From NCBI GenBank assembly GCA_028292665.1, contig JAQGLW010000083.1, forward strand, positions 1 to 64,000: a stretch of DNA of 64,000 nt, given 5' to 3'. The notes beneath the pieces were generated by a model. The model saw only the letters and a list, made by a program, of their open reading frames with translations, was not told the DNA's origin and did no database searches. Below are positions 10,797-32,400 of the stretch, one piece after another (the first letter of the stretch is position 1; the number at the start of each line of letters is the position of its first letter). This DNA comes from Herminiimonas sp. GTDB taxonomy: Bacteria > Pseudomonadota > Gammaproteobacteria > Burkholderiales > Burkholderiaceae_D. The translations under genes and the position numbers were made by a program.

Positions 10797-11165
10797 TTAT
10801 TCCTTGCGTTCGAACTGCTCACGCTGCTCGAGTTTGCGATTGGCTTTTTCTTCGATACCGGAAAGCCCTTCGCGCCGCGCCAGTTCATTCAATACATCCT
10901 GCGGCGTCAGATTGAACTGCGCCAGCATGATCATCGAATGGAACCACAGATCGGCGCATTCATAGAGCACTTTCGACGTATCGCCGTCGATACGTGCGTC
11001 TTTTGCCGCCATCACGGTTTCGGTCGCTTCTTCACCTATTTTTTTCAGGATCGCATCGTCGCCTTTGACGAACAGGCGCGCAACGTAGGATTTGTCGGGG
11101 TCACCGCCATTGGCGGGTTTGCGCGACTCGATCACTTCGGCCAGGCGTTTTAAGGTATCGCTCAT
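10797..11165 (-). CDS. hisE: Phosphoribosyl-ATP pyrophosphatase HisE
   Basis: 122-residue enzyme for the second step of histidine synthesis (PRATP to PRAMP). It is an all-alpha MazG-like protein with [13 protein letters not shown] at the start, the acidic metal-binding [12 protein letters not shown] and a following [15 protein letters not shown] helix. HisI and HisE are separate proteins here, not fused as in enterobacteria. The start overlaps the hisI stop by 4 bp (ATGA). Confidence 0.96.
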
Positions 11166-11572
11166 TTTATTTTATAAATGCTTTCCGGATCTTTCAATAC
11201 AGGCTCTACTGCTACCCATTCCCCGTTCTTGGCAGTACCTTCAAACAATTGAAAGAAACAGGAATGCCGTCCGGTATGGCAGGCAATATGATTCACCTGC
11301 TCGACCTTCAACAGCACGACATCTTCGTCACAGTCCAGGCGAACCTCATGCACTTTCTGTATATGGCCGGATTCTTCGCCCTTGTGCCACAGCTTCTTGC
11401 GCGAACGGCTCCAGTAAACGGCTTCGCCCAGCTCCATCGTCCTGGCGAGTGCTTCGCGGTTCATCCACGCGAACATCAGCACGTCGTTGGATCCGACCTC
11501 CTGCGCGATGACCGGCACCAAGCCGTGTTCATCCCATTTCACTTTGTTAAGCCATTTGGCTTTCACGCTCAT
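11162..11572 (-). CDS. hisI: Phosphoribosyl-AMP cyclohydrolase HisI
   Basis: 136-residue zinc enzyme opening the purine ring of PR-AMP, the third step of the pathway. Typical text includes [40 protein letters not shown], the acidic metal site [14 protein letters not shown] and the cysteine-containing [11 protein letters not shown]. Its ends overlap hisF and hisE by 4 bp each, so the trio is translationally coupled. Confidence 0.97.
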
Positions 11573-12333
11573 GCAAGCCTCATTGGAATACTTTGTGCCG
11601 CCATGAAGCGCTTGGCTTCCTGCACGGTATGCTGGCCGTAATGGAAAATACTGGCAGCAAGCACCGCATCGGCGCGGCCGGTCTTGATCCCGTCAGCCAG
11701 ATCCTGCAGGCTGCCGACGCCGCCGGAGGCAATCACCGGAATGGTCACCGCGTCGGACACCGCACGCGTCAGCGCCAGATCGAAACCGACCTTGGTGCCA
11801 TCGCGGTCCATGCTGGTCAACAGAATTTCGCCGGCGCCCAGGCGCTCCATCTTTTGCGCCCATTCGACCGCATCAAGTCCGGTTGCCTTGCGGCCGCCAT
11901 GAGTAAACACTTCCCACTTGCCGTCGCCCGTCTTCTTGGCATCGATCGCCACGACAATGCATTGCGAACCGTATTTCTGCGCGGCATCGAATACCAGTTG
12001 CGGATTGGTCACGGCCGACGTATTGATGCTTACCTTGTCCGCACCGGCGTTCAACAGGCGGCGCACATCGTCGACCGCACGCACGCCGCCGCCAACCGTC
12101 AGTGGAATGAATACCTGCGATGCCACGGATTCGATGATGGGCAATATCAACTCGCGCTCATCGGAAGAGGCGGTAATGTCGAGAAAGGTGATTTCGTCGG
12201 CGCCCTGTTCGTCGTAGCGGCGTGCGATTTCAACCGGATCGCCGGCATCGCGCAACTCGACAAAATTAATGCCCTTGACCACGCGCCCGGCGGTCACATC
12301 GAGACATGGAATGATGCGTTTGGCCAGCGTCAT
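11569..12333 (-). CDS. hisF: Imidazole glycerol phosphate synthase cyclase subunit HisF
   Basis: 254-residue (beta/alpha)8 barrel that uses ammonia from HisH to make imidazole glycerol phosphate and AICAR. The first catalytic Asp is in [18 protein letters not shown] and the second in [16 protein letters not shown]. Phosphate-binding loops [10 protein letters not shown] and [10 protein letters not shown] are intact. Its start overlaps the hisA stop by 4 bp. Confidence 0.98.
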
Positions 12334-13121
12334 AGATCGTCTGTTTCAGGCTCTTCGAAGCCGCTCAACTCATCCGCCCGTTCCTGCGCCGAGCGCAGGT
12401 CAAGCGTCCCCTCGTAAATCGAACGGCCGCAGATCACGCCTTCGATGCCTTCGTCCTGCACCGCGCAAAGCGCTTCCACATCCTTGATATTGTGCACGCC
12501 GCCGGAAGCGATAACCGGAATCGTCATGCTTTGCGCCAGTTTGACGGTCGCTTCGATATTGATGCCGCCCATCATGCCATCGCGGCCGATATCCGTGTAG
12601 ACGATCGCTTCGCAACCGTAATCCTCGAATTTCCTGGCCAGATCAATCACTTCGTGACCGGAAAGCTTGCTCCAGCCATCGGTCGCGACCTTGCCGTCTT
12701 TTGCATCCAGGCCGACGATGATCTGACCGGGAAAAGCGCTGCAGGCATCATGCAGGAAGCCGGGATTCTTGACTGCTGCGGTACCGATGATAATGTAGCT
12801 CAAGCCGTCATCCAGATATCGCTCGATCGTGTCCAGGTCACGGATGCCGCCGCCCAGTTGCACCGGGATTTCGTCAACGCCGTTTTCGATTGCGAACTCG
12901 CGCACGGCGCGGATGATGGATTTCACCGCCGCTTCGTTTTTCGGCTTGCCGGCAAACGCACCGTTCAAGTCGACCAGATGCAGGCGGCGCGCGCCATGAG
13001 CCAGCCAATGCCGCGCCATTTCGGCGGGGTCCTCGGAAAACACGGTGGCTTGGTCCATATCGCCTTGTTTCAGGCGAACGCAATGACCGTCTTTGAGATC
13101 AATGGCAGGTATGAGCAGCAT
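12330..13121 (-). CDS. hisA: ProFAR isomerase HisA
   Basis: 263-residue (beta/alpha)8 isomerase for the fourth step. It begins [21 protein letters not shown] with the catalytic Asp in AIDLKDG. The second catalytic Asp is in [12 protein letters not shown], and phosphate-binding glycine loops ([15 protein letters not shown]) are present. An upstream in-frame start would add 12 residues; the ATG at 13121 matches the family. No strong ribosome binding site is visible. The C-terminus overlaps hisF. Confidence 0.97.
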
Positions 13122-13163
13122 GGCGGCAGTATGAGGGTAAGGAGTTAGTAAGGACAACAGGGA

Positions 13164-13802
13164 TCAAGGCTTCCAATGTACAAAATTTCTGTACAGTTGC
13201 AAACCGGACGATGCACTTTTTTCCGGATGAAATTGTGTCGCGAAAATATTATCGCGCCCTATGACGCTGCTGAACGCAGCACCATACGAAGTTTCACCAA
13301 GCGTGTGCACGGCATCGGCAGGCGCTGCATAATAACTGTGCACGAAATAGAAGTAGCTGTCATCTGCGATTCCCTGCCACAGCGAATGGGACACTGTTTG
13401 CCTGACTCGGTTCCAGCCCATTTGCGGCACCTTGAAACGCGAGCCGTCTTCCTGCAATCGGTCATTGAGATTGAATCGCATCACTTTACCCGGCAGTAAT
13501 CCGAGCCCGGCCGTGTCGCCTTCCTCGCTCCAGTCGAACAGCATTTGTTCGCCGACACATACGCCGAACAACGGCTTGGAACGCGACGCCTCCATTACCG
13601 CATCCTGCAAACCCGATTCACGCAAACAGCGCATGCAGTCCGGCATTGCGCCCTGACCCGGCAATACGATACGGTCGGCCGACCGAATATCCGCGACTTC
13701 GCCGGTTATGCGCACATCCGCTTCGGGGGCGACATGGCGCAATGCTTGCGCCACCGAGCGCAAATTGCCCATGCCGTAATCAACCACAACAATTTTGTTC
13801 AT
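13164..13802 (-). CDS. hisH: Imidazole glycerol phosphate synthase glutaminase subunit HisH
   Basis: 212-residue class I glutamine amidotransferase that supplies ammonia to HisF. The triad is visible: nucleophilic Cys in [12 protein letters not shown], and the His and Glu in [14 protein letters not shown]. The N-terminus is [18 protein letters not shown] and the oxyanion-strand region is [13 protein letters not shown]. It lies 42 bp upstream of hisA and 56 bp downstream of hisB on the same strand. Confidence 0.97.
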
Positions 13803-13858
13803 GTTAAGACTCGAACCTCAACGAAGCGAAACATCATTCCGTGTTCCATTCATTGCGA

Positions 13859-14455
13859 TTACAGACTGCCTTTAGTCGAAGGAATTGTATTCGCTGCGCG
13901 CGGATCGAATTCCGCAGCCATGCGCAGCGCGCGGCCAAATGCCTTGAACACCGTTTCGCATTGGTGATGCGCATTTTCGCCGCGCAGATTATCGATGTGC
14001 AGCGAAACCAGCGCATGATTAACGAAGCCCTGGAAAAATTCATGCGTCAGATCGACGTCGAAGGTGCCGATCATCGAACGCTTGAAGGGCACATGGAATT
14101 CCAGCCCCGGACGGCCCGAGAAATCAATCACTACCCGCGACAGCGCCTCATCAAGCGGCACATAAGCATGGCCGTAGCGGCGGATGCCTTTTTTATCGCC
14201 GATGGCTTTTGCAAAAGCCTGGCCTAGCGTGATGCCGACGTCTTCGACGGTGTGATGCGCGTCGATGTGCAAATCGCCCTTCGCTTCAATATCCAGATCA
14301 ATCAGGCCATGACGTGCGATCTGGTCAAGCATATGATCGAGAAACGGCACGCCGGTGTTCAGCTTTTGCTGACCGGTGCCGTCGATGTTGACCGCAACGC
14401 GGATTTGCGTTTCGTTGGTATTGCGGGTGACTTCTGCAATTCGTGGCGTAGGCAT
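13859..14455 (-). CDS. hisB: Imidazoleglycerol-phosphate dehydratase HisB
   Basis: 198-residue monofunctional dehydratase for the sixth step, without the fused phosphatase of enterobacterial HisB. Metal-binding motifs are intact: [51 protein letters not shown] and [18 protein letters not shown]. The ATG at 14455 (MPTPRIAEV) fits the family length. A start ten codons upstream would overlap hisC and has no better ribosome binding site. Confidence 0.96.
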
Positions 14456-14474
14456 ATTCAAGGGGATACCAAAA

Positions 14475-15563
14475 TTACGATGCAAGCGATGCGGCTAAAG
14501 CATCGAGGAACAACTTGTTTTCTTCCGGCGTGCTAACTGTAACCCGCAGGCAATTTTCCAGCAATGCATGCATTTTACCGACATTTTTGATCAAAACCTT
14601 GCGCTCCAACAGTCCGGCAAATACATTGCTGCCGTTGCGACCTGCGGTTTGCACCCGGATCAGCAGGAAATTTGCTGCAGACGGGAAAACTTCGACCCCC
14701 GGCAGAGCGCTTAACGCTGACACCAGTTTAGCCCTTTCTTCACGCAAGGCGGCGGCTTGCGCATCCAGAATATCGGTGTGTTCAAGCAGGAATTCTGCGG
14801 CCGTCTGGGTCAGTACGTTGATATTGTAAGGCGGGCGCACCTTATCGAATTCGGACAGCAATGCACTGCTGGCCGCCATATAGCCGAGCCGGATACCGGC
14901 CAGGCCGAGCTTGGACACCGTACGCATCACGATCAGGTTGCCGAATTCGGACAGGCGGGACATGAAGCTGGCTTGTGCGAAAGGCTGGTACGCTTCATCC
15001 ACGATCACAATACCCGCATTGCCCACCGCGTGCAGAATTTCAGCCATGTCGCCGGCATCGAACAACGTGCCGGTCGGATTGTTCGGATAGGCAAGGTACG
15101 TGATGGCCGGTTTGTGCCGCGCAATTGCTGCGAGCATCGCCGTCTTGTCCAACGTGAAATCGGCCTTGAGCGGTACACCGATAAATTCCAGTCCTGCGAA
15201 TTGCGCCGACATTGCATACATTACAAAACCCGGCACCGGCGCCAGCACCTTGGCGCCGGGCTTGGCGCAAGCGATCGAGATAATCGAAATCAACTCATCC
15301 GAACCGTTGCCAAGCACCACATCAAATCCGGCAGGCACGCCGAGCCGGCCGCAAATTTTCGCTTTCAGCGCCGTATAGGACGGCACCGGATAACGGTTCA
15401 TCGCGACATCCGCCAGCCTGCATCCCAATTCCCGGCGCAGGTCTTCAGGCAGCGTGTACGGATTTTCCATCGCATCGAGCTTCACGAAACCGGTGGAATC
15501 CGGTACATGATAAGCCGCAAGCGCGCGGATATCGGGACGAATGATATTTTCAATTAAGGACAT
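14475..15563 (-). CDS. hisC: Histidinol-phosphate aminotransferase HisC
   Basis: 362-residue fold-type I PLP aminotransferase converting imidazole acetol phosphate to histidinol phosphate. It has the N-terminal substrate region KLDAMENPY, the PLP-phosphate loop [20 protein letters not shown], the Asp/Tyr pair [10 protein letters not shown] and the Schiff-base lysine in [15 protein letters not shown]. The start at 15563 ([21 protein letters not shown]) is the family start. It lies 13 bp after the stop of the DNA methyltransferase gene and is probably co-transcribed with it. Confidence 0.96.
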
Positions 15564-15576
15564 GTTCAAACCTGAT

Positions 15577-16389
15577 TTATTCACCGGAGATACAACGATC
15601 TTCAGACGATATTTCTTGCACGGCCGACATCTCTGCAGTCAGTTTTTCCAGTCGTGTTTCAATCAATCCGCAATATTCGGCATTCAGCTCGAATCCCGCA
15701 AAATTGCGTCCGCAGCGCCTGGCTGCGATTGCCGTCGTGCCGCTGCCCATGAACGGATCGAGCACTATCCCTCCGAACGGGCAGGATGCCTTGACCATGC
15801 GCTCGACGATTTCGAGCGGCTTCTGGGTTGGGTGGTCGGCCCGCTCGCGATGCTCTCGGTGCAAGCGCGACACGCTCCATACGTCCTTCGGGTTATAGCC
15901 CATTTCCAACCACTTGGCGCCCACGAAAATCGAGCGGGAGCGCGCTTTCTTGGTTTCGGCGTCATACGGAATGCGTATTGCATCCAGATCGAAATGGTAA
16001 TCCCTCGATTTCACAAAAAACCCGATCGTGTCGTGCACTGACGAAAACTTGCGTGTGCTGCCGCCCATCGACGGCACCCTGCGGTCCCATACAATTTCGT
16101 TGACCATTGTCATCCGCTGCTTCAGCATCACGAAAATTTCCGGTGAATAGCGCCATGTTAAAAAAATGTACAGGCTGCCGTTCGGCTTCAGCTTCGGCAA
16201 CGCGGCATCGATCCACTCTTCCATCCAGCGCAGATACGCGCCTGCATCGAGTTTGTCCGAATCGTTGCCGTAATCCTTGCCGAGACCGTAAGGTGGATCG
16301 GCGATGATCAGGTCAATGACGCCATCCGGAACGCGTGCAAATCCCTGCAGCGCATCCTCGCAATAAATGCGATTGAGCCACGTCGTCAT
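15577..16389 (-). CDS. Beta-class site-specific DNA methyltransferase, solitary, inside the his operon
   Basis: 270-residue amino-methyltransferase of the (N6-adenine or N4-cytosine) type. Catalytic motif IV D31-P-P-Y34 (followed by GLGKDYG) comes first. A middle segment of about 100-180, which would hold the target-recognition region, follows. Then come HPTQKP (186-191) and the AdoMet-binding motif DPFMGSGTT (211-219). This circular order defines the beta class; DPPY favours adenine as the target base. It is 22 bp downstream of hisD and 13 bp upstream of hisC on the same strand, with no restriction endonuclease gene nearby. It is therefore probably an orphan methylase transcribed with the his genes. 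Codon use looks like its neighbours. The recognition sequence cannot be read from the protein by eye. Confidence 0.93.
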
Positions 16390-16411
16390 TTAGCGATGCC
16401 GACCAGGCTCA

Positions 16412-17725
16412 TCATTTCAACCGGTACTCCGCCGATTTGGCATGCGCCTGCAGGCCCTCGCCATGCGCAAGCTCTGCAGCAACCCTGCCCAGGGTTTGCG
16501 CGCCTGCTTCGCTCACATGGATGATGCTTGACCGCTTCTGGAAATCGTACACGCCCAGCGGCGATGAAAAACGCGCAGTACGCGATGTCGGCAGTACATG
16601 ATTCGGCCCGGCACAGTAATCGCCGAGCGGCTCGGATGAGAAGCGTCCGAGGAACATCGCGCCGGCATGCCGCACCTTGTCCGCCCACTGTTGCGGATTT
16701 TCCGCGGATATTTCCAGATGTTCAGCCGCGATCATATTGGCGATTTCGCACGCCTCATCCATGTCGCGCACCTTTACCATTGCGCCGCGATTGATCAGCG
16801 AAGTACGGATCACATCCTTGCGCGGCATCCCGTCGAGCTGCCGGTTGATGCTGGCTTCCACCTGCGCGATGTAATCCGCATGCGGACATACCAGAATCGA
16901 TTGCGCCAGTTCATCATGCTCAGCCTGTGAAAACAAGTCCATCGCGACCCAATCCGGAGAGGTGCTGCCATCGCAGATCACCAGAATTTCCGACGGGCCG
17001 GCAATCATGTCGATGCCGACTGTGCCGAATACGCGGCGCTTGGCGGCGGCAACATAGGCATTGCCGGGACCGACGATCTTATCGACCTGCGGAATCGCCG
17101 CAGTGCCGTAGGCCAGTGCGCCGATCGCTTGCGCGCCGCCGATGGTGAATACGCGATCGACGCCGGCGATTGCAGCCGCGGCCAGCACCAGTTCGTTCTT
17201 CACGCCGCCCGGCGTGGGCACGACCATGATGATCTCGCGCACGCCTGCCACTTTGGCCGGAATCGCATTCATCAAAACTGAAGACGGATAGGCCGCCTTG
17301 CCGCCCGGAACGTAAATGCCGACGCGGTCGAGCGGTGTGACTTTCTGGCCCAATACCGTGCCATCGGCTTCGGCATACACAAAACCGCTGGAACCGCACT
17401 CCTGCTTTTGCCGCTCGTGGTAAACACGTACGCGATCGGCGGCGGTTTGCAACGCGGCGCGACGCGCCGGCGACAGTTGGTTCAATGCCGCCTGCAATTC
17501 AGGCTGCATGATTTCCAGGCCCGCAACGCCGGTTGCATCCAGATGATCGAATTGATTGGTGTACTCCAGCACTGCGGCATCGCCGCGCGTCTTCACGTCC
17601 GCCAGGATGCGCGCCACAGCACGATCGATCGCATCGTCTTCTCCCGCCTCGAAGGCGAGTACGGCGGTCAGTTTCGCCTTGAAATCCGGACTTGTTGAAT
17701 CGAGTTTGCGAATTTGAATTGACAT
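16412..17725 (-). CDS. hisD: Histidinol dehydrogenase HisD
   Basis: 437-residue zinc enzyme for the last two oxidations, histidinol to histidine with NAD. Conserved segments are [21 protein letters not shown], the NAD/substrate region [42 protein letters not shown], and the Zn-ligand stretches [10 protein letters not shown] and [26 protein letters not shown]. The ATG at 17725 gives the normal length; the upstream 11-codon extension is rejected. It is 50 bp after hisG. Confidence 0.97.
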
Positions 17726-17775
17726 TTTTTTCTCAATCAAGCCACGAAGCATCCCCATGGTCTGTGCGGCCGGCT

Positions 17776-18422
17776 TCAGCGTTTCGACGCTTTTTCAAAT
17801 GCTTCCAGAATCGGTTGCAAGCGTTCCCGTTTCAATTTCAGCGCGGCCTGATTAACCACCAGCCGGGAAGAAATATCCATGATGTGTTCGACCTCCACCA
17901 GGTGGTTGGCGCGCAAGGTGCTGCCGGTACTGACCAGATCAACGATCGCATCCGACAGGCCGACCAACGGCGCCAGTTCCATCGAGCCGTACAACTTGAT
18001 CAAATCGACGTGCACGCCTTTGGCGGCGAAATGCTCGCGTGCGGTTTGCACATACTTGGTCGCCACGCGCAGGCGCGCGCCCTGTCGCACCGCGCTGGCG
18101 TAATCGAAACCGGCCGACACCGCAACCGACATCCGGCATTTGGCGATGTTCAGATCGATCGGCTGATACAAGCCTTCGCCGCCATGCTCCAGCAGCACAT
18201 CCTTGCCCGCCACACCGAAGTCCGCCGCACCGTATTGCACATAGGTCGGCACATCGGATGCGCGAACGATGATGACACGCACATCGGGATCGTTGGTCGG
18301 CAGGATCAGCTTGCGCGAAGTCTCGGGATCTTCGGTGACAGTGAGGCCTGCCGCCTGCAGCAGCGGCAGAGTTTCTTCGAAGATGCGGCCCTTCGATAGC
18401 GCAAGAGTCAGTTGTTGATTCA

Positions 18423-18423
<1 letters not shown>
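17776..18423 (-). CDS. hisG: ATP phosphoribosyltransferase catalytic subunit HisG (short form)
   Basis: 215-residue short-form HisG for the first committed step (ATP plus PRPP). It begins [18 protein letters not shown] and contains [20 protein letters not shown] and the PRPP loop [16 protein letters not shown]. It lacks the C-terminal histidine-binding domain of long HisG, so by family knowledge it needs HisZ for activity and feedback. No hisZ is in this window. Its ATG overlaps the murA stop by one base (TAATG), suggesting coupling to murA. Confidence 0.97.
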
Positions 18424-19909
<1,486 letters not shown>

Positions 19910-19959
19910 GATTTTTGCCTTTTAGGATATCTGATTCTGATCAATCATCAACAACGAAT

Positions 19960-20715
19960 TCAATGACGTAATTTATAGCCGCTTTTCAACATTTGAACTG
20001 CCAGTCCGGCCAATACGACAAAGAACATGGCCACGATCGAAAAGCTTGTTACCGGATTCACGTCGGACTGACCGAAAAATCCGTAGCGGAAGCCGTCAAT
20101 CATATAAAAAAACGGGTTGACGTGCGATACCGCCTGCCAAAAAGGCGGCAGCGAGTTGATTGAATAAAACACGCCGGACAAAAAAGTCGCCGGCATGATC
20201 AAAAAATTCTGGAACGCAGCCAGCTGATCGAATTTTTCCGCCCAGATGCCGGCAATCAGACCCATCGTGCCCAATATCGCGGCACCCAGCAATGCAAAAA
20301 CGGCAATCCACCAAGGTGCGACGAACGACAGCTTCGCAAACCACGCGGTAATCAGGAATACCCCTGCGCCGACCGTCAAGCCGCGCACGACCGCAGCCAG
20401 CACATAAGCGCCGAACAACTCCCAATGCGACAGCGGCGGCAATAATACGAACACCAGATTGCCGGTAATCTTGGACTGGATCAAAGATGAAGACGAATTG
20501 GCAAATGCATTTTGCAGCACACTCATCATCACAAGACCGGGAACCAGGAACGCGGTGTATTTCACACCAGGATACACCTGCACATGCTCTTCCAGTACAT
20601 GGCCGAAAATCAGCAGATACAGCATCGCCGTGACGATCGGCGCGGTCAATGTCTGCGTCGCCACTTTCCAGAAGCGCAGCACTTCCTTGTAGAACAAAGT
20701 CTGGAAGCCGATCAT
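19960..20715 (-). CDS. ABC-2 type transporter permease (YadH-like)
   Basis: 251-residue inner-membrane permease with six predicted helices, an ABC-2 domain and the family signature region LAAFQNFLIMPATFLSGVFYSINSLPPFWQAVSHVNPFFYMIDGFRYG. It overlaps the ATPase gene by 4 bp, so the two form one exporter. Close relatives are the YadG/YadH pairs of unknown substrate. Its position between mlaB and the bolA-like gene is common in betaproteobacteria, which suggests an envelope role, but this is only inference. Confidence 0.9.
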   Translation of the reverse strand: MIGFQTLFYKEVLRFWKVATQTLTAPIVTAMLYLLIFGHVLEEHVQVYPGVKYTAFLVPGLVMMSVLQNAFANSSSSLIQSKITGNLVFVLLPPLSHWELFGAYVLAAVVRGLTVGAGVFLITAWFAKLSFVAPWWIAVFALLGAAILGTMGLIAGIWAEKFDQLAAFQNFLIMPATFLSGVFYSINSLPPFWQAVSHVNPFFYMIDGFRYGFFGQSDVNPVTSFSIVAMFFVVLAGLAVQMLKSGYKLRH

Positions 20716-27637: not shown

Positions 27638-30600
27638 TTATGCTGCAATTTTTTCTTTTGCCAGCTTGGCAGCCTTGGCCGCATCCATCTCGCCCAGCGC
27701 CCGCTTGTACTCGGTCGGGAAGACTTTGACGAACTTGCTGCGCGCGGTGGCCCAGTCGTCCAGCAGACTGCGCGCGCGCGTACTGCCGGTGTACTTGAAA
27801 TGACGCTCGATCAAGCCTTTCAAAATCTCTTCGTGGGTTTGCGCTTCGCCGCCGCGCACCGTGGTATGCCAGATTGCACGGTCGGTCTTTGCCTCCTGCT
27901 CGGCCGATGACAAGACCGGATTGAGATCGACCATCGCCATGTTGCATTTCCTGGCAAAGTCTCCATCCGGGTCATACACGTAAGCGATACCGCCCGACAT
28001 GCCTGCGGCGAAGTTGCGGCCGGTCGCGCCCAGCACGACGACGGTGCCGCCGGTCATGTATTCGCAACCATGATCGCCGGTACCTTCGACTACTGCGGTT
28101 GCGCCGGAATTACGCACTGCGAAACGCTCGCCGGCGACACCATTGATGAATGCCTCACCAGCAATCGCGCCATACAGGACAGTATTGCCGACGATAATGT
28201 TGTCGACCGCCCAGCCGCGGAACTCGGTATTGGGGCGCACGATGATGCGGCCGCCCGACAAGCCTTTGCCGACATAATCGTTGCCCTCGCCGACCAGATC
28301 GAGCGTGATCCCATGCGCCAGGAATGCACCAACCGATTGGCCGGCGGTTCCATGCAACTGGATATGGATCGTATCGTCGGGCAAACCTTCGTGTCCGTAT
28401 TTTTTGGCAACTTCGCCGGACAGCATTGTGCCGACAGTCCGATTGACGTTCTTGACCGGCGAAATGAATGAGACTTTCTCGCCTTTGTCGAGCGCCGCCT
28501 TCGCCTGTGCGATCAGTTTGTGGTCAAGCGCTTTTTCCAGACCGTGCTCCTGCTCTTCGACCTGATAACGCGGCTCGGAAGCCGGCATGTCCGGCTGATA
28601 GAAAATCCTGCTGAAATCGAGACCTTTCGCCTTCCAATGCGAAATCGCCTTTGATTTATCGAGCAGATCGGAACGGCCGATCAATTCGTTGTATGAAGGG
28701 ATGCCCAGTTGCGCCATGATCTGACGCGCCTCTTCAGCGACGAAGAAGAAGAAGTTGACGACATGCTCGGGCTTGCCCGCAAATTTCGCGCGCAGTACCG
28801 GGTCTTGCGTGGCGACGCCGACCGGGCAAGTATTCAAATGGCATTTGCGCATCATGATGCAGCCTTCGACCACCAATGGCGCGGTCGCAAAGCCTACCTC
28901 ATCGGCACCCAGCAATGCAGCGATCACGACGTCGCGTCCGGTCTTGATCTGGCCGTCGGTCTGCACACGGATACGGCTGCGCAGACGGTTCAGCACCAGC
29001 GTCTGCTGCGTTTCGGCCAGGCCCAATTCCCACGGCGTGCCGGCATGTTTGACCGAAGACAGCGGTGATGCGCCGGTACCGCCATCATGACCGGCGATCA
29101 CGACGTGGTCCGATTTCGCTTTTGCGACACCGGCAGCAACTGTGCCGACGCCGACTTCGGAGACCAGCTTGACGGAAATCGATGCTTTCGGATTGGCGTT
29201 TTTCAAATCATGAATCAGCTGCGCCAGATCCTCGATCGAATAAATATCATGATGCGGCGGCGGAGAAATCAGGCCGACACCTGGCACCGAGAAACGCAGC
29301 TTGGCGATGTATTCCGACACTTTGTGTCCGGGCAATTGTCCACCTTCGCCGGGCTTTGCGCCTTGCGCCATCTTGATCTGGATTTGATCGGCCGATGTGA
29401 GGTATTCGGCGGTCACGCCGAAACGTCCCGACGCAACCTGCTTGATTTTGGATCGCAACGAGTCGCCTGGCAGCAATGGCATATCGACTTCGATACGATC
29501 CTTGCCGATTACCGATGCCAGTGTATCGCCTTGCTTGATCGGGATGCCTTTCAATTCCTGGCGATAGCGATTTTCGTCTTCGCCGCCTTCGCCGGTATTG
29601 GATTTGCCCCCGATGCGGTTCATCGCAATCGCCAGCGTTGCATGGGCTTCGGTCGAGATCGAGCCGAGCGACATTGCGCCGGTTGCAAAACGCTTGACTA
29701 TTTCCTTGGCGGGTTCGACTTCGTCAAGCGGAATCGCTTGCGATGGATCCAGCTTGAATTCAAACAAGCCGCGCAACGTCATGTGACGCTTCGATTGATC
29801 GTTGATGATCTGCGCGTATTCCTTGTATGTGTTGAAGTTGTTGGCGCGTGCCGAATGCTGCAGTTTTGCAATCGCATCCGGTGTCCACATGTGATCTTCG
29901 CCGCGCACACGGAACGCATATTCACCGCCGGCATCCAGGGCATTGGCGAGCACCGGGTCGGTGCCGAATGCCAGTTTGTGCAGATGCAACGCTTCTTCGG
30001 CGACTTCGAATACGCCGATCCCTTCGACATTGGACGCGGTGCCTTTGAAGTACTTGTCAACCAGCGCCTTGTTCAAACCGATCGCTTCAAAAATCTGCGC
30101 GCCGCAATACGACATGTAAGTGGAGATGCCCATCTTCGACATCACCTTCATCAAGCCCTTGCCGATGGCCTTCTGAAAATTGTAGATTGCTTTTTCCGGC
30201 AACAGATCGCCGGGCAGACCCTTGGCCATGTCGATCAGCGTATCCATGGCCAGATATGGATGGATTGCTTCGGCGCCGTAACCGGCGAGCAGCGCGAAAT
30301 GATGTGTTTCACGCGCGGAACCGGTTTCGACGACGAGTCCGGTCGATGTACGCAAACCCTTGCTGACCAGATGCAGATGAATTGCCGACGTGGCAAGCAG
30401 TGCGGGTATTGCGACCTGCTCGGCATCGACTTTGCGATCGGAGATGATCAGGATGTTGTGGCCGGATCTGACCGCATCGACCGCTTTCGCGCACAGCGAA
30501 GCCAGGCGCGCCTCGATGCCTTCCTTGCCCCATGCAACCGGGTAGCAGATATTCAGTTCATGCGACTTGAACTTGCCGCCGGTATGTACGCTGATGTTGC

Positions 30601-32326
30601 GCAGCTTTGCGATGTCGGCATAATCGAGAATCGGCTGCGACACTTCGAGACGCATCGGCGGGTTGATGTTGTTGGTATCGAGCAGATTCGGCTTAGGACC
30701 GATGAACGATACCAGCGACATTACCATCGCCTCGCGGATCGGGTCGATCGGCGGATTGGTCACTTGCGCAAACAATTGCTTGAAATAGTGGTACAGCGTC
30801 TTGTTCTTGTTGGACATGACGGCCAGCGGCGAATCATTGCCCATCGAACCGGTCGCCTCTTCCGCCAGCACCGCCATTGGCGACATCAGGAATTTCAGAT
30901 CTTCCTGCGTGTAGCCGAACAATTGCTGGAGGTCGAGCAGCGGCGTGGTCGGCTTGGCTTCTTCCGGCTCCGCCTTGAGTTCGCCGAGCCTGATGCGCAC
31001 CGACTTGATCCATTGCTTGTACGGCTTGGCGTTGGCGTATGTGTCCTTGAGTTCCTTGTCGTCGATGATGCGGCCCGCATCGAGGTCGATCAGGAACATT
31101 TTGCCTGGCTGCAGGCGCCATTTCTTGATGATTTTCGATTCGGGAATCGGCAATACGCCGGATTCCGACGCCATCACGACCAGGTCGTCATCGGTCACGA
31201 TATAACGCGCCGGACGCAAGCCGTTACGGTCCAGGGTTCCGCCGATATGGCGGCCATCGGTAAAAGCCATTGCGGCAGGGCCATCCCATGGCTCCATCAT
31301 TGCGGCATGATATTCATAGAAAGCGCGACGGTTGTCATCCATCAGAGTATGGTTTTCCCATGCCTCCGGGATCATCATCATCATCGCTTGTGCGATAGGA
31401 TAGCCCGCCATCAGCAGCAATTCCAGCGCATTGTCGAAGCATGCGGTATCGGACTGGCCTTCATAAATCAGCGGGAACAGCTTCTTCAGATCGTCGCCCA
31501 GCACAGCGGATTTCATCACGCCTTCGCGCGCGCGCATCCAGTTGAAGTTGCCTTTGACGGTATTGATCTCGCCGTTATGCGCGAGCAGGCGGTATGGATG
31601 GGCCAGCGGCCACTCAGGAAACGTATTGGTCGAAAACCGTTGATGCACCAGCGCCAGCGCAGATACGCAGCGCGGATCCTGCAAGTCCTTGTAATACACG
31701 CCGACCTGGTCCGCCAGCAGCAAACCCTTGTAGACGATCGTGCGGGCCGACATCGACGGCACGAAAAATTCCTTGCCGTGAAGCAGATTGAGCGCCTGAA
31801 TCGCATGACCAGACGACTTGCGGATTACATACAATTTGCGCTCGAGCGCATCGGTCACCATGATGTCCTGGCCACGGCCGATAAAAATCTGGCGGATCAC
31901 CGGTTCTTTTTGACGCACGGTAGGCGACATCGGCATATCGATATCGATCGGCACATCACGCCAGCCGAGCACGACTTGGCCTTCGGCATGCGTTGCCCGC
32001 TCGATTTCCTGTTCACAAGCAATGCGAGAAGCATTTTCTTTTGGCAAAAAGACCATGCCGACGCCATATTCACCGGGCGGCGGCAACGTCACACCTTGCC
32101 TGGCCATTTCTTCCCGGTAATATTGATCGGGAATCTGAATCAGAATACCGGCGCCGTCACCCATCAATTTATCGGCCCCGACCGCACCCCGATGATCGAG
32201 ATTTTTCAGGATAAGCAAACCCTGCTCGACAATTGAATGGCTCTTTTTGCCTTTGATATGAGCAATGAAACCGACGCCGCAAGCGTCGTGTTCGTTGGAT
32301 GGGTCGTACAGACCTTGCGCATGCAT
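27638..32326 (-). CDS. gltB: Glutamate synthase large subunit GltB
   Basis: About 1562-residue enzyme making two glutamates from glutamine and 2-oxoglutarate. An N-terminal class II glutaminase domain has the nucleophile Cys in [13 protein letters not shown], exposed after removal of a short propeptide. Central and FMN-binding domains follow, with the [3Fe-4S] ligands in [15 protein letters not shown]. The C-terminal GXGXG beta-helix domain is seen as repeated G-x-x-G-x-x-x-G text ([37 protein letters not shown]). GGAG lies 8 bases before the ATG at 32326; an ATG two codons earlier (32332) is too close to it. The RAYT element begins about 75 bp upstream. Confidence 0.97.
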
Positions 32327-32400
32327 ATGCATTCTCCGCTACTGATGGGATTGAATCAGAAGGATAATGCACTGCAACAGATTATTCAACCCAAAAAAAC

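Follow-up and report, generated by a model that had tools for sequence, protein, structure and literature searches.

The DNA methyltransferase gene (MTase below) that lies among the histidine biosynthesis genes of a Herminiimonas sp. is, with good probability, the Oxalobacteraceae copy of an old, mostly vertically inherited Burkholderiales orphan with GTWWAC specificity which, seated in a his or a trp operon and thereby steadily supplied, would tune the expression of some genes. What was met in none of the papers searched is the his-operon address across Oxalobacteraceae; the enzyme itself, by sequence the ortholog of M.BceJIV and M.RsoORF1982P, is already known. That address is real and well kept, and it suggests, short of proof, a link of DNA marking with amino-acid production. 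The stretch of DNA analysed, 64,000 nucleotides in all, is referred to as the window; genomes and loci carry analysis labels (G, L and C numbers), as do families f31 and f10 and genus g66.

A methyltransferase gene among the his genes

The original prediction had described an intact methyltransferase with DPPY at residues 31-34 and DPFMGSGTT at 211-219, positioned between hisD and hisC on their common strand with gaps of 22 and 13 bp, and the open reading frame, the alignment and the coordinates confirm it on all of these points (Table 1). The frame has an ATG start and zero internal stops. Motif IV (DPPY) is ahead of motif I (DPFxGSGTT), both intact, an order which we take to denote the beta class, and Pfam N6_N4_Mtase matches at E 1.2e-58. 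An alternative GTG start for hisC is present at 15584, and with that start the overlap with MTase is 8 bp. Going by the two short gaps, MTase is probably co-transcribed with the his genes. Is there a sign of separate or of leader-mediated control? Rfam at gathering thresholds gave a tRNA alone in the window, and so no his leader, and a scan of 13000-20000 gave 6 promoter-like sites vs 3.8 expected and 13 terminator-like sites vs 8.4 expected, which is evidence for neither side; one promoter-like site of that same scan with its 6 sites vs 3.8 expected, at 15541-15569 (-), covers the hisC start.

Table 1. Coordinates of MTase, its motifs and its neighbours in the window
Feature	Position	Strand	Basis
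murA, upstream neighbour of the his genes	18423..19673	-	NCBIfam
hisG	17776..18423	-	NCBIfam
hisD	16412..17758	-	Pfam/NCBIfam
Gap from hisD stop to MTase ATG, 22 bp	16390..16411	-	coordinates
MTase, orphan beta-class DNA methyltransferase gene, 270 aa	15577..16389	-	ORF, Pfam/NCBIfam, PDB and plasmid-record matches, alignment, fold comparison
Motif IV DPPY, residues 31-34, catalytic	16288..16299	-	sequence; invariant in 39 aligned rows
Motif DPFMGSGTT, residues 211-219, cofactor binding	15733..15759	-	sequence and alignment
Gap from MTase stop to hisC ATG (15563), 13 bp	15564..15576	-	coordinates
hisC, ATG start	14475..15563	-	Pfam/NCBIfam
hisB	13859..14485	-	NCBIfam
hisH, hisA, hisF, hisI, hisE	10797..13802	-	NCBIfam

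At the window locus the genes from murA to hisE lie too close together for a restriction gene to fit next to MTase, and his genes flank MTase on both sides in 109/109 family loci read, so that the absence of a nearby endonuclease, also part of the prediction, is borne out locally. The G+C of MTase (0.549) and its GC3 (0.667) are within the ranges of the nine his genes (0.513-0.597 and 0.608-0.712, respectively). It is single copy in the window's genome (4.33 Mb, 199 contigs), where the other match at E 0.001 is one distant sequence of 33% identity. A possible second DNA methyltransferase of this genome is L002 (G000:C133, 715-2145, +), a 476-aa protein which matches Pfam N6_N4_Mtase at E 5.3e-20, has no NCBIfam match at E 1e-30 and adjoins a gene whose product carries a PrmC N-terminal domain. 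Elsewhere in the window, a 1049-aa open frame at 29087-32236 (+), antisense to a 1564-aa frame at 27638-32332 (-), is probably a shadow frame.

Kinship with the GTWWAC orphan of Burkholderia and Ralstonia

The best PDB sequence matches of MTase are 8urk (E 1.3e-120) and 9c3u (E 4.7e-120); the titles of 8urk, 9c3s and 9c3u name M.BceJIV of Burkholderia cenocepacia, and 9c3t has the sequence of 8urk. BCAM0992, the name under which a B. cenocepacia enzyme has been studied, and M.BceJIV are presumably one enzyme. Orthology with it and with M.RsoORF1982P spans nearly the full length. In a plasmid collection the identity to the B. cenocepacia copy is 67.9% over 240 aa, and at least 8 records, all of Burkholderia or Caballeronia, are at 65.7-70.5%; at least 4992 matches are under 60%, the other 17 among the matches listed reaching at most 36%. 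With phages, all 1731 of the 1731 matching records are below 60% identity, the best among the matches listed being 36.4%.

What is known of these relatives comes from reports here drawn on in extract. In the extract of PMC7364216, BCAM0992 is an orphan between trpB and trpA for which its authors suggested control together with the trp operon, M.RsoORF1982P is named as its homolog, and its deletion in B. cenocepacia leads to loss of GTWWAC methylation in mutants that are viable. In that of PMC5390034, the Ralstonia ortholog is an orphan kept across Burkholderiaceae and linked to GTWWAC by comparison, and this motif is commonest in Ralstonia in promoter regions. In that of PMC11460718, an RSc1982 deletion strain is the control that lacks GTWWAC methylation, and adaptation was aided by a methylated site upstream of one gene. 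That MTase is of adenine type, as had been predicted, is upheld by its orthology to the characterised m6A enzyme of the first two of these extracts (PMC7364216, PMC5390034). For Burkholderia and Ralstonia, effects of the enzyme family on motility, biofilm and plant adaptation have been reported. The GTWWAC literature found all concerns Burkholderia, Ralstonia or Cupriavidus, and that found on a trp operon and a methyltransferase concerns Burkholderia or Ralstonia alone; no Oxalobacteraceae methylation or expression data on MTase turned up in the search, nor did a published account of its his seat, REBASE and subscription papers being outside that search, so that the seat may be in print elsewhere.

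Does the his-seated enzyme have the same specificity? Orthology, together with the agreement of the his and trp types in the loops, points to GTWWAC. The consensus sequences of the two types agree at 21/23 positions in 98-120 and 37/45 in 147-191, which are the poorly modelled loops; elsewhere the agreement is 9/24 (1-24), 18/21 (25-45), 35/52 (46-97), 20/26 (121-146), 13/15 (192-206) and 31/44 (207-250). Six differences between his and trp types, at positions 77, 80, 121, 179, 200 and 223, are near-fixed. The structure model of MTase has a mean pLDDT of 72.5 and is weak at 37-44, 102-118 and 147-189, and its use is limited to overall fold and PDB titles; by fold it ranks M.MboIIA first (Z 24.6), with M.BceJIV at Z 23.1-23.5 over 219 residues.

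Two operon addresses in sister families

In the window's family MTase is present in 244/294 genomes and 33/44 genera, with 50/294 genomes being without a copy at E 1e-40. We infer that this family is Oxalobacteraceae because the genera named among the best 80 loci are Noviherbaspirillum, Herminiimonas, Collimonas, Herbaspirillum, Oxalicibacterium, Glaciimonas, Undibacterium and a few others. Among 60 relatives (own genome included, no genus represented twice) MTase is present in 26, all within the window's family, to which 36 of the 60 belong. An order-level sample of 300 genomes has 13 with the gene, namely 8 in the window's family (own included), 4 in f31 and 1 in f10, and a class-level sample gave zero matches at E 1e-50 in 273 genomes other than own. 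Family f31, with MTase in 112/150 genomes, is probably Burkholderiaceae in the strict sense, as its copies resemble named Burkholderia and Caballeronia ones.

The original prediction had proposed comparing the hisD-hisC interval among relatives. That comparison, across the family, has MTase directly behind hisD on the same strand in 109/109 loci read, a recurrence that excludes chance as the source of this gene order, and hisD adjoins MTase, by coordinates, in 21 of 25 further family genomes that represent the remaining genera and odd cases. The 109 loci comprise 26 from the 60-relative set (own included), 80 that are best by identity to the window and 3 from the order sample, collections that overlap, and the count leaves out the distant paralogs L002 and L028. 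Downstream of MTase is hisC in 80 and hisB in 29; in the latter, e.g., L033, L035 and L040, there is no hisC between MTase and hisB, and the distance between matches is ~15-354 bp. In L076 hisD is in two pieces. By genus, 31 of the 33 with MTase have the his seat in every genome examined (often one), 1 is mixed and 1 is trp.

Outside the family the order is trpB-MTase-trpA-accD in 36/36 loci, 33 of them from f31 (read in 33 of its 112 genomes with MTase), 1 from f10 and 2 from named plasmid-collection records, the genes being named on L112 (TrpB and TrpA by NCBIfam, AccD by a Pfam zinc finger). Each site is unoccupied where the other is filled: trpB-trpA is without MTase in 25/25 family genomes read that bear it behind hisD, and hisD-hisC is without it in 5/5 trp-type genomes read. 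When 20 MTase-less genomes of the family were queried with HisD, 1 gave no match and hisD was followed by hisC in 16/19; of the others, 1 has a weak reverse-strand HisC match and 2 have no recognised his gene within 1.5 kb.

There are exceptions. G066 has a trp-type MTase despite its family membership, and may have retained an old seat or newly received the gene; its hisD and hisB are separated by ~2.4 kb (G066:C23:46936-49332), room for hisC and ~1.2-1.3 kb of other sequence. In G065 (C21), G092 (C6) and G144 (C57), all of genus g66, MTase and hisD are on different contigs, the hisD-hisB distance of 1.16-1.26 kb has room for hisC only, and in G065 trpB is on yet another contig, so that MTase is at neither site there; G157 of that same genus is his-type. 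A second copy is present on a short contig in G110, and G069 has two his-seat copies, both assemblies being partly contaminated. In G231 (C1:489410-490164) the match to the his-seat gene is split into two pieces that overlap and differ in frame, owing to a frameshift or to faulty assembly, and G646 of f31 has no more than a fragment with stops.

How old is the association? On a tree of MTase (75 rows: 56/109 his, 18/36 trp and one outgroup) one change separates his and trp types, with weak support (40 and 57), and both groups are far from the 35% relative, L028. On a HisD tree (52 rows, midpoint root, leaving out L014 with its hisD in pieces, the repeats L147 and L150, and the paralogs L173-L175) nine deep MTase-less rows of the family are outside all MTase-bearing rows, presence or absence amounts to 5 changes, and the his label requires 3 or more, given the starred branches. 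The simplest reading of these trees, an unproven one, would be a single gain followed by a single move and a few losses. Pairwise identity of MTase co-varies with that of HisD (Spearman 0.63; 102 of 105 loci tried). For the other his genes and murA vs HisD the values are 0.26-0.66 (70-79 loci), with MTase-HisD there at 0.54-0.60; MTase has 0.25-0.39 with HisH, HisA, HisF, HisB and murA, and 0.54 with HisG. The gene is under strong constraint, on a par with hisD: median dN/dS is 0.097 vs 0.110 for hisD (164 and 179 usable of 220 sampled pairs), values that are rough because median dS is near 1. The long residence that had been surmised from codon use is thus sustained by the his seat throughout the 109 family loci read, the co-variation with HisD, a G+C and GC3 like those of the his genes, and the constraint.

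What the his seat may do

In the preferred reading the GTWWAC methyltransferase most likely predates the split of Oxalobacteraceae and Burkholderiaceae and, with mostly vertical descent, would have taken its place either behind hisD or, in Burkholderiaceae, between trpB and trpA, within an amino-acid operon in both cases. To judge from the gaps, the his transcript would carry it; its product, by orthology, would methylate both strands of GTWWAC at the fifth base (A), and that methylation may, as in the studied relatives, alter expression of some genes with the motif in their promoter. The operon seat would most likely give a steady, growth-linked enzyme supply, as it does for dam in E. coli, rather than a histidine-driven switch. 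This explanation and its rivals overlap, so that the likelihoods worded below are not those of exclusive choices and are not shares of one whole.

Is the motif itself distributed as if promoters were its place of action? No upstream enrichment of GTWWAC was found in three MTase-bearing genomes, where the log2 ratio of upstream to coding observed/expected is -0.30, -0.04 and -0.36 (-0.41, -0.31 and 0.05 in three MTase-less genomes); as 324-400 kb per genome were covered, with 3 to 17 upstream sites each, a modest effect could be missed. Between murA and hisG the motif is present in 0/74 loci (74 of the 80 named loci being checkable), a test of little power given that the two genes are almost contiguous. 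Overall, observed/expected is 0.92, 0.76 and 0.31 in the three MTase-bearing genomes (window excluded) vs 0.96, 1.07 and 0.91 in the three without, and avoidance is not claimed because the ranges overlap. Within loci it is 0.56 for the 80 his-seat ones (106 of 189 expected), 0.81 for 19 MTase-less ones (18 of 22) and 0.19 for 36 trp-type ones (5 of 26 expected), with several control motifs of the same composition equally low there. The window has 14 sites vs 21.75 expected. In the MTase-bearing sample of G032 (L267-L286) the motif is strongly depleted, 38 observed vs 122 expected.

Might the seat behind hisD be a matter of chance, with the operon a source of transcript only and the enzyme providing housekeeping methylation or a shield from incoming restriction? 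This shares identity and specificity with the preferred reading and, while unlikely, merits being kept in mind. The 5 presence/absence changes on the HisD tree fit it, as do the location of MTase away from hisD in G065, G092 and G144, the absence of hisC from the interval in 29/109 loci while MTase is present, and the direct succession of hisD and hisC in 16/19 genomes lacking the gene. However, a useless gene would decay, yet the dN/dS is low; a broken copy is present in 1 of the 25 further genomes, G231, and in one listed genome of f31, G646.

A bolder proposal is that selection put a chromosome-wide adenine mark under amino-acid operon control, trp in one line and his in its sister, such that GTWWAC methylation of new DNA would track biosynthetic state or growth rate and adjust other promoters; we hold it to be improbable. 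Slightly more doubtful still is a histidine-specific reading in which, as the original prediction had suggested, the level of MTase would track his-operon transcription and methylation would vary with histidine demand, GTWWAC marks then relaying that state to other promoters. The tiny gaps within the operon, the recurrence of the his seat across 31 or more genera and the occupation by the ortholog of another amino-acid operon, trp, are what it would lead one to expect. Nevertheless, Rfam found no his leader, no upstream enrichment was found, the murA-hisG interval, weak test though it is, has none of the motif, and the involvement of two amino acids and of at least one genome with MTase at neither site speaks against a histidine-specific signal; moreover, in the extracts of PMC7364216 and PMC11460718 the methylation of GTWWAC in the relatives is full or nearly so. 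Least probable is that MTase is a remnant of a type II restriction-modification system whose matching endonuclease is elsewhere in the genome, for though the PADLOC model that fits it best is that of a type II methyltransferase (E 4.4e-147) and the likeness of BCAM0992 to type II enzymes is remarked in the extract of PMC7364216, its neighbours are his genes in 109/109 loci and trp genes in 36/36, and in Burkholderia and Ralstonia it is an orphan, without which B. cenocepacia lives (PMC7364216, PMC5390034, as extracted).

The two operon addresses in sister families set up a natural contrast, his seat, trp seat, another seat and no gene, much of it in harmless, culturable bacteria, through which the importance, if any, of an orphan methylase's place in an operon can be addressed. 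Which known systems does MTase resemble? With BCAM0992 / M.BceJIV it shares the motifs, similar loops, endonuclease-free surroundings and a place in an amino-acid biosynthesis operon, and the difference is the seat, trpB-trpA for that enzyme and behind hisD for this one. For M.RsoORF1982P of Ralstonia solanacearum upstream enrichment of the motif has been reported, whereas none was found in three Oxalobacteraceae genomes. CcrM of Caulobacter has an m6A fold like it (Z 21.6), but identity with CcrM is rejected, the score being 105 bits vs an NCBIfam equivalog cut-off of 830 and the match stopping at 259 of the 350-position model. The PRK11524 model of NCBIfam, for YhdJ of enterobacteria, matches across 7-250, and identity with YhdJ is likewise rejected at 157 bits vs an equivalog cut-off of 292. 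Dam of E. coli parallels the window's enzyme in being a lone adenine methylase whose operon also holds metabolic genes, but it is of the alpha class, recognizes GATC and has other neighbours.
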